From NCBI GenBank assembly GCA_018435055.1, contig JAHDOA010000018.1:62001-126000 (forward strand): a stretch of DNA of 64,000 nucleotides, given 5' to 3'. The DNA comes from Pelotomaculum sp. Its GTDB lineage: Bacteria > Bacillota > Desulfotomaculia > Desulfotomaculales > Pelotomaculaceae. The notes beneath the pieces are model-generated. The model saw nothing but the letters and a program-made list of their open reading frames with translations. It searched no databases and was not told the DNA's origin. A program made the position numbers and the translations under genes. This document shows positions 11,486 through 18,801 of this stretch, in pieces (the stretch's first letter is position 1; every line of letters starts with the position of its first letter).

Positions 11486-14299
11486 ATGAAAAGAAATTAT
11501 GTTGTTTGCGACCTGGAAACAACAGGCCTTAACCCCATAACAGACAGGATCATCGAGATAGGTCTCGTCAGGGTTCAGCAGGGTGAAATCGCGGGGAAGT
11601 ACCATACCATGGTCAATCCCGGTATGACGCTGCCGTTAAAGATCAAAAGGCTTACCGGAATAGACGACGGCGACCTGGCCGGCGCCCCCCCGATTGGTGA
11701 GGTTATCGGCGATGTGGTTGATTATATAGGCAATGACGCTATAGTAGGACATAACATTCGTTTTGATCTTGATTTTCTGTCAGCCGCGCGCGGGCTTCCC
11801 TTTGCCAACCCCCATTATGACACGGTTGAACTGGCAAGGCTATTAGTACCCGATGCGGTTAGTTACCGCCTGTCATCGCTTTGTTCCAGGCTGGATATAG
11901 ATACCGGAGGCAATCACAGAGCCCTGCGGGATGCACTGGCAACAGCCGGTCTTATGGTTATGCTGCTGAAGCAATTACACAGCCTGGATCCCGGTATTCT
12001 GATCCATTTGCACAAACTGCTTTTTGATGCAAATTCAGCATGGAGTGTGCCGTTAAATGATTTTATAAAAGAGTGTTTAAAAAAATTTCCGGACAGTAAA
12101 ATAACCCGCATATCTTACCTGCGCCGCGTGGCGGAAAAAGATAATCAGTATCTCAGGCCTGCCAGGGGTCCATCTGCGGAAAAATTAATACTTGAACAAA
12201 ATGAAATGGTTTCACTGTTAAAAGAAGGCGGGCCGCTGGCGAATGCGCTTCCGGCATACGAGTACCGCCCCCAGCAGGAAGCAATGGTATGTGGGGTCAC
12301 CCGTGCCCTGAACGAGGGCAAATTTTTGCTGATGGAGGCTGGGACGGGTATCGGTAAGTCTATTGCTTATTTATTGCCGGCTATACTGTGGAGCGTTAAA
12401 AACAAAGAAAGAGTTTTGGTAGCCACGCACACGATCAACCTGCAGGAACAGTTATGGTTTAAAGATATCCCCATGCTCGCTAAAATGATCAAAGAGCCTT
12501 TCCATGCTGCGCTGGCCAAAGGACGGCAGAATTACATCTGCCTGCGCAGATGGTTCGGCGCATTAGACAGCGCGCACCAGCCTGACGAAGCAGCATTTTT
12601 TGCCAGGGTGCTGTTATGGCTTAATATTACCGAAACTGGTGACAGAGGCGAGTTAAACATCAATCCGGCGGAGAGTGATATCTGGCTAACCATCAGCGGG
12701 GAAACCGACGGTTGTTTAGGGCCGCGCTGCCAATACCAGAAAGATTGTTTTGTTAACAGGGCTAGAAAAAACGCTGAAAACGCCGACCTGATCATCACCA
12801 ATCATTCATTGCTTTTTTCTGATATTAAGGCCGACAACAGGGTGCTGCCTTCATTCGGACCATTGATTATCGATGAAGCGCATCACATTGAAGAATCGGC
12901 TACCACCCACCTGGGAATACAGTTCAATAAAAAAACGTTTAACAGGTGGCTGTGGTTAGCGGGCAGAGACCTGGCCAAGCTTGCGGAAAAGGTTCCGCCG
13001 GCTGATGGCGCGAGGTGGTTTGAACTGGTTAAAACCGCTCGAGAGACCAGGTTGGAACTGCTTGAAAGCGCGCGTCAATTTTTTGAACACCTCTATGATC
13101 TGATCTCTGGCAGCGCAACGGATAAAGGGTACAGTTACAGCACCAGATCCTTAAGATTGCCCCTGGCAGACGGCAGCTATGAAGTATTTCTGGAAAACGG
13201 CAGGAGATGCGTCCAGCAATTGCACAGATTCACTGGTGATATTAAAGCCTGCGCCGTTCTTATGGAAATTTGGTCAATCTCTGATGAAGCTTGGGCCGGT
13301 GAACTGCGGGATATTACCGGCCTGAGCCTGGCGGGCGAGGCCTGGGCGCAAGACCTGCATTTCATATTAGAAGGTATTGATACTGAGTTTGTTTACTGGG
13401 CAGATATAGAAGCCAGCACCCGCGCCACAAATAGGAATTGTTCCTTAAATGCCGCCCCCGTCGATGTGGGGACGCTTTTATTTAACCGTTTATTTAAAAA
13501 TAAAGAAACAGTTATTCTTACTTCTGCAACGCTTACGGTAAACGAAGATTTCGGCCATATGATTGAAAGGACCGGGCTTAAATATCTGAACGGGGAAAAG
13601 CTGTTAAAAGCCAGCTTTAACTCTCCTTTTTCTTATGAACACCAGGTAATGCTTTGTATAAATCGTGACCTCCCGGTACAGGGCGCAGTAGACGATAATG
13701 TTTACCTGAAAAATATTGAAAATGCCCTTTACAAATTGATTTTGGCCACCGGTGGCAGGGCGTTGGCACTGTTTACTTCACATAGAATTCTACGCGAGGC
13801 TTACAGACGGTTGAAACCACTTTTAGAGGCTCACGATATCTGCTTGCTGGGTCACGGCATCGACGGCAGCAGGTCGCGCCTGCTGGAGGAGTTTAAAGGA
13901 AAAGGCAGGTCTGCTTTATTCGGCTCATTAAGTTTTTGGGAGGGAATCGATGTGCCGGGTGACGCCCTGACCTGTGTCATTATTGTAAAATTGCCTTTTT
14001 CTTCGCCCTCCGTGCCGATTATTGAAGCTCGCCTGGAGGACCTGTCCAGGCGGGGTAAAGACGGTTTTAAGCTGTTAAGCGTACCACAGGCTATTATACG
14101 TTTCAAGCAGGGATTTGGCAGGCTGATCAGGAGCAGCAGCGACCGCGGCTGCGTGGTCGTCCTCGACGGGAGGATACTCAATAAAAGCTACGGCAGGCAT
14201 TTTCTGATTTCTCTCCCCGTCAAGCGGCACCTCAGGGGAGATGTGGATTTTATCGCTAAAAAAATTGCCGAATGGCTGGAAAACAACCGGGACCGCTGA
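11486..14299 (+). CDS. dinG: DinG-type helicase with N-terminal exonuclease domain
   Basis: The 937-residue protein has two parts. Residues 1-165 are a DEDDh exonuclease of the DnaQ/PolC epsilon type (VCDLETTG, 'VGHNIRFDLDF', 'HRALRDALAT'). The rest is an XPD/DinG superfamily 2 helicase with Walker A EAGTGIGKS near residue 285, a DEAH box near 460 and the C-terminal 'GRLIRSSSDRG' motif VI. Four cysteines around 410-430 (GCLGPRCQYQKDC and upstream) fit the Fe-S cluster site of DinG/XPD. This fusion is the Bacillus/clostridial DinG; in some species the helicase half is degenerate, but the motifs here look intact. The likely role is 5'-3' unwinding of damaged DNA or R-loops coupled to 3'-5' exonuclease activity. 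Confidence 0.92.
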   Translation: MKRNYVVCDLETTGLNPITDRIIEIGLVRVQQGEIAGKYHTMVNPGMTLPLKIKRLTGIDDGDLAGAPPIGEVIGDVVDYIGNDAIVGHNIRFDLDFLSAARGLPFANPHYDTVELARLLVPDAVSYRLSSLCSRLDIDTGGNHRALRDALATAGLMVMLLKQLHSLDPGILIHLHKLLFDANSAWSVPLNDFIKECLKKFPDSKITRISYLRRVAEKDNQYLRPARGPSAEKLILEQNEMVSLLKEGGPLANALPAYEYRPQQEAMVCGVTRALNEGKFLLMEAGTGIGKSIAYLLPAILWSVKNKERVLVATHTINLQEQLWFKDIPMLAKMIKEPFHAALAKGRQNYICLRRWFGALDSAHQPDEAAFFARVLLWLNITETGDRGELNINPAESDIWLTISGETDGCLGPRCQYQKDCFVNRARKNAENADLIITNHSLLFSDIKADNRVLPSFGPLIIDEAHHIEESATTHLGIQFNKKTFNRWLWLAGRDLAKLAEKVPPADGARWFELVKTARETRLELLESARQFFEHLYDLISGSATDKGYSYSTRSLRLPLADGSYEVFLENGRRCVQQLHRFTGDIKACAVLMEIWSISDEAWAGELRDITGLSLAGEAWAQDLHFILEGIDTEFVYWADIEASTRATNRNCSLNAAPVDVGTLLFNRLFKNKETVILTSATLTVNEDFGHMIERTGLKYLNGEKLLKASFNSPFSYEHQVMLCINRDLPVQGAVDDNVYLKNIENALYKLILATGGRALALFTSHRILREAYRRLKPLLEAHDICLLGHGIDGSRSRLLEEFKGKGRSALFGSLSFWEGIDVPGDALTCVIIVKLPFSSPSVPIIEARLEDLSRRGKDGFKLLSVPQAIIRFKQGFGRLIRSSSDRGCVVVLDGRILNKSYGRHFLISLPVKRHLRGDVDFIAKKIAEWLENNRDR

Positions 14300-14408
14300 G
14301 CTATGATGTTAATATATGGAACATGGTTGCAGCTAAAAAAATAGCACATTCAGGCAGGCTCTGAAATAATATATTAACAGCTAACCTAATGAAGGGATGT
14401 GATTATCC

Positions 14409-14474
14409 TTGCGTGTATATTTTGTGAAACTCCCGTCGTTTTTGAGGTCATGGCTGATGAGAATATGGAAGTAA
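14409..14474 (+). CDS. spoVM: SpoVM-like sporulation micropeptide
   Basis: A 21-codon frame starts at TTG with GAAGGGATG upstream and reads MRVYFVKLPSFLRSWLMRIWK. It aligns without gaps to Bacillus subtilis SpoVM (26 residues), sharing Met1, a basic residue 2, Tyr4, Lys7-Leu8-Pro9 and Phe11-Leu12. Pro9 is needed in B. subtilis for recognition of the curved forespore membrane. SpoVM inserts as an amphipathic helix on the forespore surface and anchors the coat ATPase SpoIVA. The C-terminal five residues of the B. subtilis peptide are missing. A terminator follows 8 bp later, so this is a monocistronic unit. Confidence rests on the N-terminal match, start context and terminator. Confidence 0.7.
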   Translation: MRVYFVKLPSFLRSWLMRIWK

Positions 14475-14482
14475 TACTTCGT

Positions 14483-14508
14483 GGCAGGCTACAATAGTCT
14501 GCCTTTTT
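14483..14508 (+). terminator. Terminator of the spoVM unit
   Basis: GGCAGGCTA pairs along its length with TAGTCTGCC (one G-T) around a CAA loop, followed by TTTTT. It lies 8 bp after the micropeptide stop codon, which supports that frame being a real gene. Confidence 0.85.
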
Positions 14509-14922: not shown

Positions 14923-15504
14923 ATGGAGACAATTAATGTAAGTGAATCAATTACAAAGAACGCGGATTTCATCACAGAAATAGGTATTGAGAGCGGACAA
15001 CCTGTGCAAAAATGCTACCAGTGCGGTAAATGCACCGCCGGCTGCCCGGTAGCCTTTGCCATGGATTATCCACCGCAACAGGTTATTCGCATGGTCCAGC
15101 TCGGCATGAAAGATGAACTGCTGAAGAGCAATACGATCTGGATCTGCGCTTCCTGCTCAACCTGTTCAACCCGCTGCCCGTGCAATGTGGAAATCGCCCA
15201 TGTGATGGAAAGCCTCCGGATCAAGGCTGGAAAGGCAGGCGCCGCCCCTGCGGGGAAAGCCAAATACGTTGAGGTTATGTACGACGCGCTGCTCGGCACA
15301 GTTGAAAAATATGGGCGGACCTATGAAGTCGGGTTGGTTATGCAAAACAATTTAAAAAGCGGAAAACTATTTAATGGCGCGGACATGGGTTTGCCCATGT
15401 TCCAAAGAGGCAAACTCCAATTGATGCCGCCTAAGGTACAGGGCGCGGCGGAAGTTGCCCGCATATTTGCCGAAGTGCGCAAAATGGAAGGTGGTGTGAA
15501 ATGA
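14923..15504 (+). CDS. hdrC: Heterodisulfide reductase subunit C
   Basis: HdrC carries two [4Fe-4S] clusters that pass electrons from HdrA to the disulfide-reducing HdrB. Both ligand sets are visible: CYQCGKCTAGCP near residue 28 and CASCSTCSTRCP near residue 68. The 193-residue form starts at ATG 14923 behind GAGGGG; the frame is open 14 codons further up without a ribosome site. The stop overlaps the hdrB start by 4 bp (ATGA), so translation is probably coupled. In organisms without coenzyme M the electron acceptor is not a CoM-CoB disulfide; DsrC trisulfide or another thiol partner has been proposed in bacteria. Confidence 0.92.
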   Translation: METINVSESITKNADFITEIGIESGQPVQKCYQCGKCTAGCPVAFAMDYPPQQVIRMVQLGMKDELLKSNTIWICASCSTCSTRCPCNVEIAHVMESLRIKAGKAGAAPAGKAKYVEVMYDALLGTVEKYGRTYEVGLVMQNNLKSGKLFNGADMGLPMFQRGKLQLMPPKVQGAAEVARIFAEVRKMEGGVK

Positions 15505-16390: not shown

Positions 16391-18376
16391 ATGGCAAAGA
16401 GGATTGGTCTTTTCGTTTGCTGGTGCGGCTCCAATATCGGGGGTGTAATTGACGTCCCGAAAGTCGTTGAAATTACAAAAAATTTCCCGGGAGTTGCTTA
16501 CGCCACCGATTATAAGTATATGTGTTCGGAGCCGGGCCAGGACACGATAATTAAAGCTATCAAAGAACACAATCTAGACAGGGTGGTCGTGGCCTCTTGT
16601 ACACCGAGACTGCATGAACCGACCTTCCGCAAAACAATCGCCAAGGCCGGATTGAATCCGTACATGTTTGAGATGGCCAATATCCGCGAACAGTGCACCT
16701 GGGTTCACTCTGATGACAAGGAAGGCGCCACCCAAAAAGCAATTGCCCTGATTAAAAGGGCGCTTGCAAAGGTCTCCAGAGTGGAGCCTCTGTTTGAATC
16801 ATATATCCCGGTCACTAAAAAGGCGCTCGTGATCGGCGGCGGCATCGCCGGTATGCAGGTGGCTATAGATATTGCCGACGCGGGACACCAGGTCATCCTG
16901 GTAGAAAGGGAGCCAACTATAGGCGGGAAAATGGCCATGCTGGACAAGACCTTTCCCACACTTGACTGCTCCGCCTGAATAAGCACGCCAAAGATGGTTG
17001 CTGCGGCGCAGCATCCTAATATTCAGCTAATGACCTACTCCGAGGTAACAGAGGTAAACGGTTATATCGGAAACTTCGAGGTCACCATCAGGCAAAAACC
17101 GCGCTATGTGGATCATAAATTATGTACCGGCTGCGGCACCTGCACGGAAAAATGTCCGACCAAGGTGCCGAGCGAATACGACCTCGGGATTGGCAACAGG
17201 AAATGCATTTACATTAACTTCCCACAGGCGGTACCCAACAAGCCGGTAATTGACGCGGAAAACTGCCGTTATTTTAAAACAGGGAAATGCGGTGTCTGTA
17301 AGAAAATTTGCCCCACCGGCGCGGTTGATTTCGAGCAAAAAGAAGAGTTCATCACGGAAAAAGTAGGCGCCATAGTGATGGCTACCGGCTTCGACCTCTT
17401 CAACTGGGAGGATGCATACGGCGAGTACGGTTATGGACGCTTTAAGAATGTTATAACCGGTCTGCACTTTGAGCGTATGTCAAACGCTTCCGGCCTGACA
17501 GGAGGTAAAATCATACGTCCCTCAGACGGCAAGGAACCTAAATCAGTTGTATTTATCAAGTGTGTCGGTTCAAGGGACGAGGCCAAAGGCAAGGAATACT
17601 GTTCACGCGCCTGCTGTATGTACACGGCCAAACACGCCCACCAGGTTATTGATAAAATCGAAGGCTCCAGCGCGTATGTCTTTTACATGGACGTGCGCAC
17701 ACCGGGCAAAGCCTATGATGAATTTTACCGGCGCACTGTCGAAGAGGGCGCCCAGTATATCAGGGGCAGGGTGTCCAAAATATACGAGTCAGGCGACAAG
17801 CTGATCGTTATGGGAACCGACACCCTGTTAGGAAGACCGGTTACGGTAGAGGCAGATCTGGTTGTGCTGGCCACGGCCATGGTGCCGAGCGAAGGTTCGG
17901 ACAAGATTGCCCAGCTGGTCAGTTGCCCAACTGATAAAGACGGTTTCTTTGCAGAAGCCCACCCGAAATTAAGGCCTGTTGAGACGATGACCGGCGGTTT
18001 GTTCCTGGCCGGCGCCTGCCAGGGCCCGAGAGACATACCTGATACGGTGTCCCAGGCAAGCGGCGCGGCAGTCAAGGTGGTTGCCCTGCTGAACAACGAC
18101 CAGCTGGCCACCGACCCGATGATCAGCCAGATAGATGAAAAAATGTGTTCCGGTTGTCTGGTCTGCAAAGGAGTATGTCCATACAAGGCAATTTCGGAAA
18201 AAACCATTACCGAAAGGATTGGCGGTAAGCCGGTAGAGCGGGTAGTTGCCAGTGTTAATACTGGCCTTTGTCAGGGTTGTGGCAACTGCACAGTAGCCTG
18301 CCGGGCCGGCGCCGCAAACCTGAAGGGATTCACTAACCAACAAGTGCTTGCGGAGGTGGACACCCTGTGTCGATAG
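16391..18376 (+). CDS. hdrA: Heterodisulfide reductase subunit A, selenocysteine-containing (UGA at codon 196)
   Basis: HdrA is the flavin-containing, electron-bifurcating subunit. The frame is read through an in-frame TGA at 16976-16978 and totals 661 residues, the normal length. Before the TGA are a CxC-type N-terminal region, the FAD fold [14 protein letters not shown] (about 143-156) and '[13 protein letters not shown]'. After it comes ISTPKM. Cysteine relatives read DCSAC-I-x-TPKM here, so the TGA falls exactly on a conserved cysteine and is read as Sec196. Downstream are [27 protein letters not shown], then [12 protein letters not shown] and [12 protein letters not shown] near the C-terminus, which bind [4Fe-4S] clusters. 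A hairpin follows the TGA (see SECIS entry). The end overlaps mvhD by 10 bp. Confidence 0.9.
16979..17017 (+). promoter_or_regulatory. Putative bacterial SECIS hairpin in hdrA
   Basis: Seventeen bases after the TGA, GGTTGCTGC (16996-17004) pairs with GCAGCATCC (17008-17016), with one T-T mismatch and a GGC loop. The apex lies about 27 bases downstream of the TGA, in the range expected for SelB-bound elements, and the GGTTGC start recalls the E. coli fdhF element. The consensus is loose, so this is inference from position and structure. Confidence 0.6.
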
Positions 18377-18801
18377 AAACAAAAGAATTTAACCCGATAA
18401 TAGTTGGTTTCAACTGTAACTGGTGCAGTTACGCAGGCGCTGACCTGGCCGGGGTCAGCCGGATGAAATATCCCGCCAATGTACGGGTCATCCGCGTCCC
18501 CTGTTCCGGTCGCGTTAATCCGTCGTTTGTCTTAAGAGCATTCCAGAAAGGCGCTGACGGCGTACTGGTTTCAGGGTGACACCCGGGTGACTGCCACTAT
18601 GCTAGTGGCAATTACTTCACTCGCAGGCGCTACCTGCTGTTAAAGCGCTTGCTGGAGTATGTCGGTTTTGAGCCCGGCCGCCTGACGGCGCGCTGGATAT
18701 CCGGTTCTGAAGGGGCAAAATTTACAACTACGATTAAGGATATAACAGAAAAAATCAAATCCCTGGGTCCTAATAAAAAGATGAGGGATGATATCGTATG
18801 A
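18367..18801 (+). CDS. mvhD: MvhD/FlxD-type [2Fe-2S] protein, selenocysteine-containing (UGA at codon 71)
   Basis: MvhD-like proteins carry a [2Fe-2S] cluster and deliver electrons to HdrA. The GTG start overlaps the hdrA end. The frame contains C17-N-W-C20, C46 in 'VPCSGRV', a TGA at 18577-18579 as codon 71 and C76. Around it the reading is VLVSG-U-HPGDCHY; cysteine relatives have GCHPGDCHY. In methanogen VhuD the same position is selenocysteine. Read through, the protein is 144 residues, matching the family, and ends with [22 protein letters not shown]. Its own stop is also TGA (18799-18801), overlapping the next ATG by 4 bp, so UGA is both Sec and stop in one gene. A perfect 8-bp hairpin follows the first TGA. 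Confidence 0.9.
18580..18612 (+). promoter_or_regulatory. Putative bacterial SECIS hairpin in mvhD
   Basis: TGCCACTA (18592-18599) pairs perfectly with TAGTGGCA (18603-18610) around a TGC loop, starting 12 bases after the TGA with its apex at 22 bases. A second short palindrome CACCCGGGTG lies directly after the TGA. A perfect stem inside a coding region at this distance is the expected arrangement for SelB recruitment. Confidence 0.7.

Follow-up and report, generated by a model that had tools for sequence, protein, structure and literature searches.

SpoVM is a tiny membrane peptide that serves as anchor of the spore coat. In the Bacillus subtilis peptide (26 aa, PDB 2mvh) the kink at Pro9 is used for curvature sensing and I6 for SpoIVA binding (PMC5607322), and the gene is a sigma-E gene (PMC7985256). 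Clostridioides difficile, a clostridial-type sporulator, has a SpoVM that also binds SpoIVA; its gene is controlled by sigma-E and is largely dispensable (PMC5607322). According to Galperin et al. (2012), the bacilli all have spoVM but only part of the clostridia do; the authors raised the question of distant versions elsewhere (PMC3533761). The short SpoVM lineage that we describe here bears on that question. A literature search found no description of a 21-residue SpoVM; some short forms may have been recognised earlier.

The starting point was a frame of 21 codons plus stop at 14409-14474, forward strand, of the window, the 64,000-nucleotide stretch of a Pelotomaculum sp. contig that was analysed. 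An earlier note had taken it for a spoVM gene with a TTG start, a ribosome site and an immediately following terminator, similar to SpoVM over 12 N-terminal residues and five residues shorter than the Bacillus peptide, and all these features were recovered. Translation from the TTG gives LRVYFVKLPSFLRSWLMRIWK. Upstream, at 14391-14402 on the same strand, lies the Shine-Dalgarno-like GAAGGGATGTGA, which relatives keep as AAGGRnTGTGA / AAAGGGGTGA. The intrinsic terminator GGCAGGCTACAATAGTCTGCC-TTTTT, a 9-bp hairpin with a T tail (14483-14508, forward strand), begins after a gap of 8 nt behind the stop codon. It was the sole terminator-like site of the scan, where shuffled sequences lead one to expect 0.4, and similar hairpins occupy the equivalent position in relatives. 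When the 1424 start-to-stop peptides of 17-40 aa within the window were ranked by a canonical SpoVM profile, the product came first with 13.0 bits, the runner-up scoring 3.8. The only NCBIfam model that matches it is SpoVM_broad, at residues 1-12 with 14 bits; because its cut-off is 31 bits, a detection threshold of the model and not a biological property, SpoVM_broad would leave the peptide unnamed. From these and the following comparisons we conclude that the frame is a real gene of the SpoVM family in a short and relocated form, and we give a probability of about 0.9 to its being a true spoVM that belongs to a lineage of short, 21-residue SpoVM peptides.

With B. subtilis SpoVM the peptide shares the start M-K/R-x-Y-x-V/I-K/R-L-P-x-F-L, including the invariant Pro9 and a hydrophobic residue 6, as well as a hydrophobic register in the helix half (positions 11, 12, 15, 16, 19 and 20). 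Unlike it, the window peptide has 21 residues, lacking the C-terminal GSFRKD-like tail (the last five residues), and carries Arg13 and aromatic helix residues, the helix half being marked by Arg/Trp where Bacillus has Gly/Val/Arg. The genes differ too: the window gene starts with TTG, follows dinG instead of adjoining rpmB, and has a -35 box of the sigma-K rather than the sigma-E type.

Being merely 21 codons long, and short frames being common, the frame could be a chance one. Its conservation was followed at the syntenic place, which was located in 60 genomes via dinG without the peptide as a guide. The dinG-like exonuclease/helicase gene (11486-14299, forward strand) is a conserved upstream neighbour. 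dinG could be mapped in 53 genomes, counting the own one. The check suggested by the earlier note, a search for the frame after dinG in related genomes, found it 3' of dinG and in the same orientation in 52 of these, at less than 400 nt in 41 and at 0.7-1.4 kb in 11. In the one exception, G003, the promoter, ribosome site and frame are gone and the terminator hairpin is kept together with the sequence beyond it. A search with the short-form profile A1, built from 22 sequences, matched 99 of the 113 genomes of the order, at a single place in nearly all; in the own genome it gave one place that was significant and no second significant copy. The match in G080 was partial and by chance and was dropped, while a wider profile added G040, G050 and G087, so that about 101 of the 113 genomes carry the peptide. 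The earlier note had named absence from close relatives as refuting its reading; the frame is conserved there. The first match in G060 was likewise partial and by chance, and the G060 copy is likely at another site. Linkage of the short spoVM to dinG is order-wide.

Among the 95 frames extracted, 84 have exactly 21 codons, and the start codons are TTG (52), ATG (32) and GTG (11). The length of 21 aa is constant across a wide lineage of SpoVM and does not reflect a local truncation. Three frames of family f14 (L010, L194, L208) have an extended C-terminus and reach 28-39 aa against the 21-aa norm. Synonymous and nonsynonymous diversity are 0.72 and 0.14 (pS and pN) within the family and 0.43 and 0.05 within the genus, and in the family the first, second and third codon positions have diversities of 0.19, 0.09 and 0.48, a pattern which indicates that the short peptide is under purifying selection. 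A chance reading frame is ruled out by conservation throughout the order and beyond, by the contrast between pS and pN and by the conserved ribosome site, promoter and terminator; its probability is negligible.

A real peptide need not be SpoVM. It could be an unrelated amphipathic membrane peptide, for instance one like a type I toxin, that resembles SpoVM by convergence: the look is common to many cationic amphipathic peptides, and the single window peptide matches the SpoVM model weakly. The frame was picked for its resemblance to SpoVM, and a SpoVM-like motif at the expected site after dinG helped to recognise its relatives, a selection bias to which the NCBIfam models, shared profile places, PDB search, profile-profile comparison and hydrophobic register are less prone. 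When 72 diverse short peptides were compared with 18,950 NCBIfam models, SpoVM_broad (NF033436) gave 52 matches (best E-value 4.5e-6) and NF011327 gave 21; no model besides these two SpoVM ones matched. Met1 and Pro9 are invariant among the 72 peptides and Y4, L8 and F11 nearly so, while position 2 is R/K and position 6 V/I/L/F in the short family.

Across the phylum 399 genomes were sampled, of which A1 matched 98 and NF033436 73 (21 above cut-off). The two profiles share a start in eight genomes; in none of the 399 were there two full-length matches at separate places, and where the profiles disagree one match is partial. Profile-profile comparison of the short family with SpoVM (hhalign) gave probabilities of 95.3% and 96.2%, and in a search of the PDB with the short-family profile SpoVM (2mvh) came second among 177,635 sequences (E=0.5). 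At sequence level, the short family and canonical SpoVM agree in the hydrophobicity of columns 10-21, with a correlation r of 0.73 on one scale (permutation p=0.006) and of 0.56 on a second (p=0.03); the hydrophobic moment of the window helix, taken alone, is unexceptional among shuffles (12.5%). The B. subtilis peptide as query found nothing in the own genome and a six-frame search with the NCBIfam model missed the frame, probably through reading TTG as Leu; we judge both to be failures of sensitivity. No NCBIfam SpoVM match above cut-off was found in the 60 genomes (own and relatives). Weak NF033436 matches at other loci, e.g. L001-L003, L005, L007 and L009, proved on inspection to be chance. 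Convergence is further opposed by the single-copy, syntenic nature of the peptide, by its absence from spoIVA-less genomes of at least 80% completeness, and by the layout, in which neither an antisense RNA nor a toxin-antitoxin arrangement was seen. With SpoVM models alone matching among 18,950 and the two profiles bridged in eight genomes, we consider convergence improbable, and the short SpoVM lineage is, by these profile matches, widespread in Bacillota.

A SpoVM is expected to occur together with SpoIVA, and lack of spoIVA in the genome was the other finding that the earlier note would have held against its reading; the own genome has spoIVA (E=1.8e-252). Co-distribution was examined in genomes at least 80% complete, all drafts in which absence is no proof. 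Nine of these have no detectable peptide (G003, G012, G048, G066, G079, G080, G085, G086 and G105), and spoIVA is missing from four of them (G003, G079, G080, G085) as against none of the 54 peptide-bearing genomes tested (Fisher p=2e-4, a count that ignores phylogeny, the four spoIVA-less genomes coming from four genera). Loss of spoIVA is over-represented among genomes that lack the short peptide. In G086 spoIVA is in two pieces, and it is present without the peptide being found in G012, G048, G066 and G105. Overall, seven spoIVA-bearing genomes have no detectable peptide, G012, G048 and G105 among them being at least 92% complete. G003 belongs to the same genus as the window; at its locus after dinG (L064) spoVM is gone and spoIVA went undetected, making it a candidate for recent loss of sporulation.

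The gene has moved relative to canonical spoVM, which adjoins rpmB in most of the loci L124-L153 from Bacilli and other lineages, an adjacency typical of SpoVM and not defining for it. No spoVM copy lies near rpmB, the Bacillus location, in the own genome, and a check of 1.5 kb around rpmB found none in 21 genomes that have the short form or surround those that do. The first gene 3' of the frame is hdrC-like (14923-15504, forward strand), separated from it by the terminator and about 415 nt. An intrinsic terminator directly behind a short frame and upstream of a metabolic operon is also what a leader peptide with attenuator would look like, translation of the frame then regulating the downstream hdrCB genes. 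Here, however, the amino acids are kept even though synonymous change has come close to saturation, the downstream genes vary by lineage (hdrCB or a gene on the opposite strand), folding shows no conspicuous alternative structure (z -1.1), and neither an Rfam match nor a run of regulatory codons was found, so that attenuation is very improbable. In other orders the short spoVM stands at other places: several copies precede hdrCB-like genes (L102, L106, L107, L119), and others lie beside an opposite-strand membrane-protein gene. At eight loci of these orders (L097, L098, L104, L110, L111, L114-L116) a conserved gene for a small membrane protein, possibly similar to the TIGR04086 type, lies downstream on the opposite strand.

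Upstream of the short spoVM the family alignment contains a conserved block, a putative mother-cell promoter of the form KCACM-N15-N(A/C)ATANNNTA at 14344-14373, forward strand. In the window its -35 is GCACA (14344-14348) and its -10 AAATAATATA (14364-14373); upstream regions of the family have in common GCACATT, then a spacer of variable sequence, then AAATAATATATTA. The B. subtilis consensus is KCACM / GCATANNNTA for sigma-K and TYATATTT / KCATANANTN for sigma-E (PMC3416734). Of 95 upstream regions, 47 contain the sigma-K-like pattern KCACM-N12..16-N(A/C)ATANNNTA, which was relaxed at one base after the data were seen; the mean after dinucleotide shuffling is 0.1. The literal sigma-K -10 GCATANNNTA with KCACM was found in none of the 95, the relaxed (A/C)ATANNNTA form alone being conserved; nor did any of them show the sigma-E consensus, which is that of B. 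subtilis and may not be that of this lineage. A mother-cell promoter upstream of the short spoVM is likely on this pattern, and a shift of the gene to sigma-K control is possible. Upstream of spoIVA, the sigma-K-like pattern occurred once among 20 relatives. At the spoIVA loci L236-L255 two upstream elements are conserved: GCATACAAT, which matches the sigma-E -10 perfectly and runs opposite to spoIVA, and, shortly 5' of the spoIVA start, GGGGAGGGATGCA, possibly a further short frame or an RNA element.

We propose that during sporulation a mother-cell sigma factor would transcribe a single-gene spoVM unit from the promoter at about 14344-14373. Residues 1-9 of the peptide would form an N-terminal loop with its kink at Pro9, and the roughly 12 residues after it an amphipathic helix with its hydrophobic face set by the shared register. 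By analogy with B. subtilis, the helix would embed in the convex outer forespore membrane and residues around position 6 would capture SpoIVA, which would then polymerise into the coat base; membrane targeting, SpoIVA recruitment and sporulation timing of the short form are inferred from that system. More tentatively, and on balance doubtfully, the short SpoVM may be under sigma-K rather than sigma-E, in which case the anchor would be made or reinforced late in a large part of Bacillota, the 21-residue peptide would be a complete functional unit, and the order of coat base assembly would be unlike that of B. subtilis. SpoVM is almost unnecessary to C. difficile (PMC5607322), so that presence of the short form is no proof of importance. 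If the short forms are functional, the membrane anchor of SpoIVA would occur far beyond the genomes in which it is annotated at present, 21 residues would be enough for anchoring, and loss of the peptide could be used as a marker of sporulation loss.

Elsewhere in the window, an HdrA-like gene at 16391-18376 contains one in-frame TGA, at residue 196 (LDCSA-U-ISTPKMV), and gives 661 aa when read through; it is probably a selenocysteine HdrA. The MvhD-like frame at 18367-18798 has an in-frame TGA at residue 71 (GVLVSG-U-HPGDCHY) and is probably a second selenoprotein adjoining the HdrA-like one.
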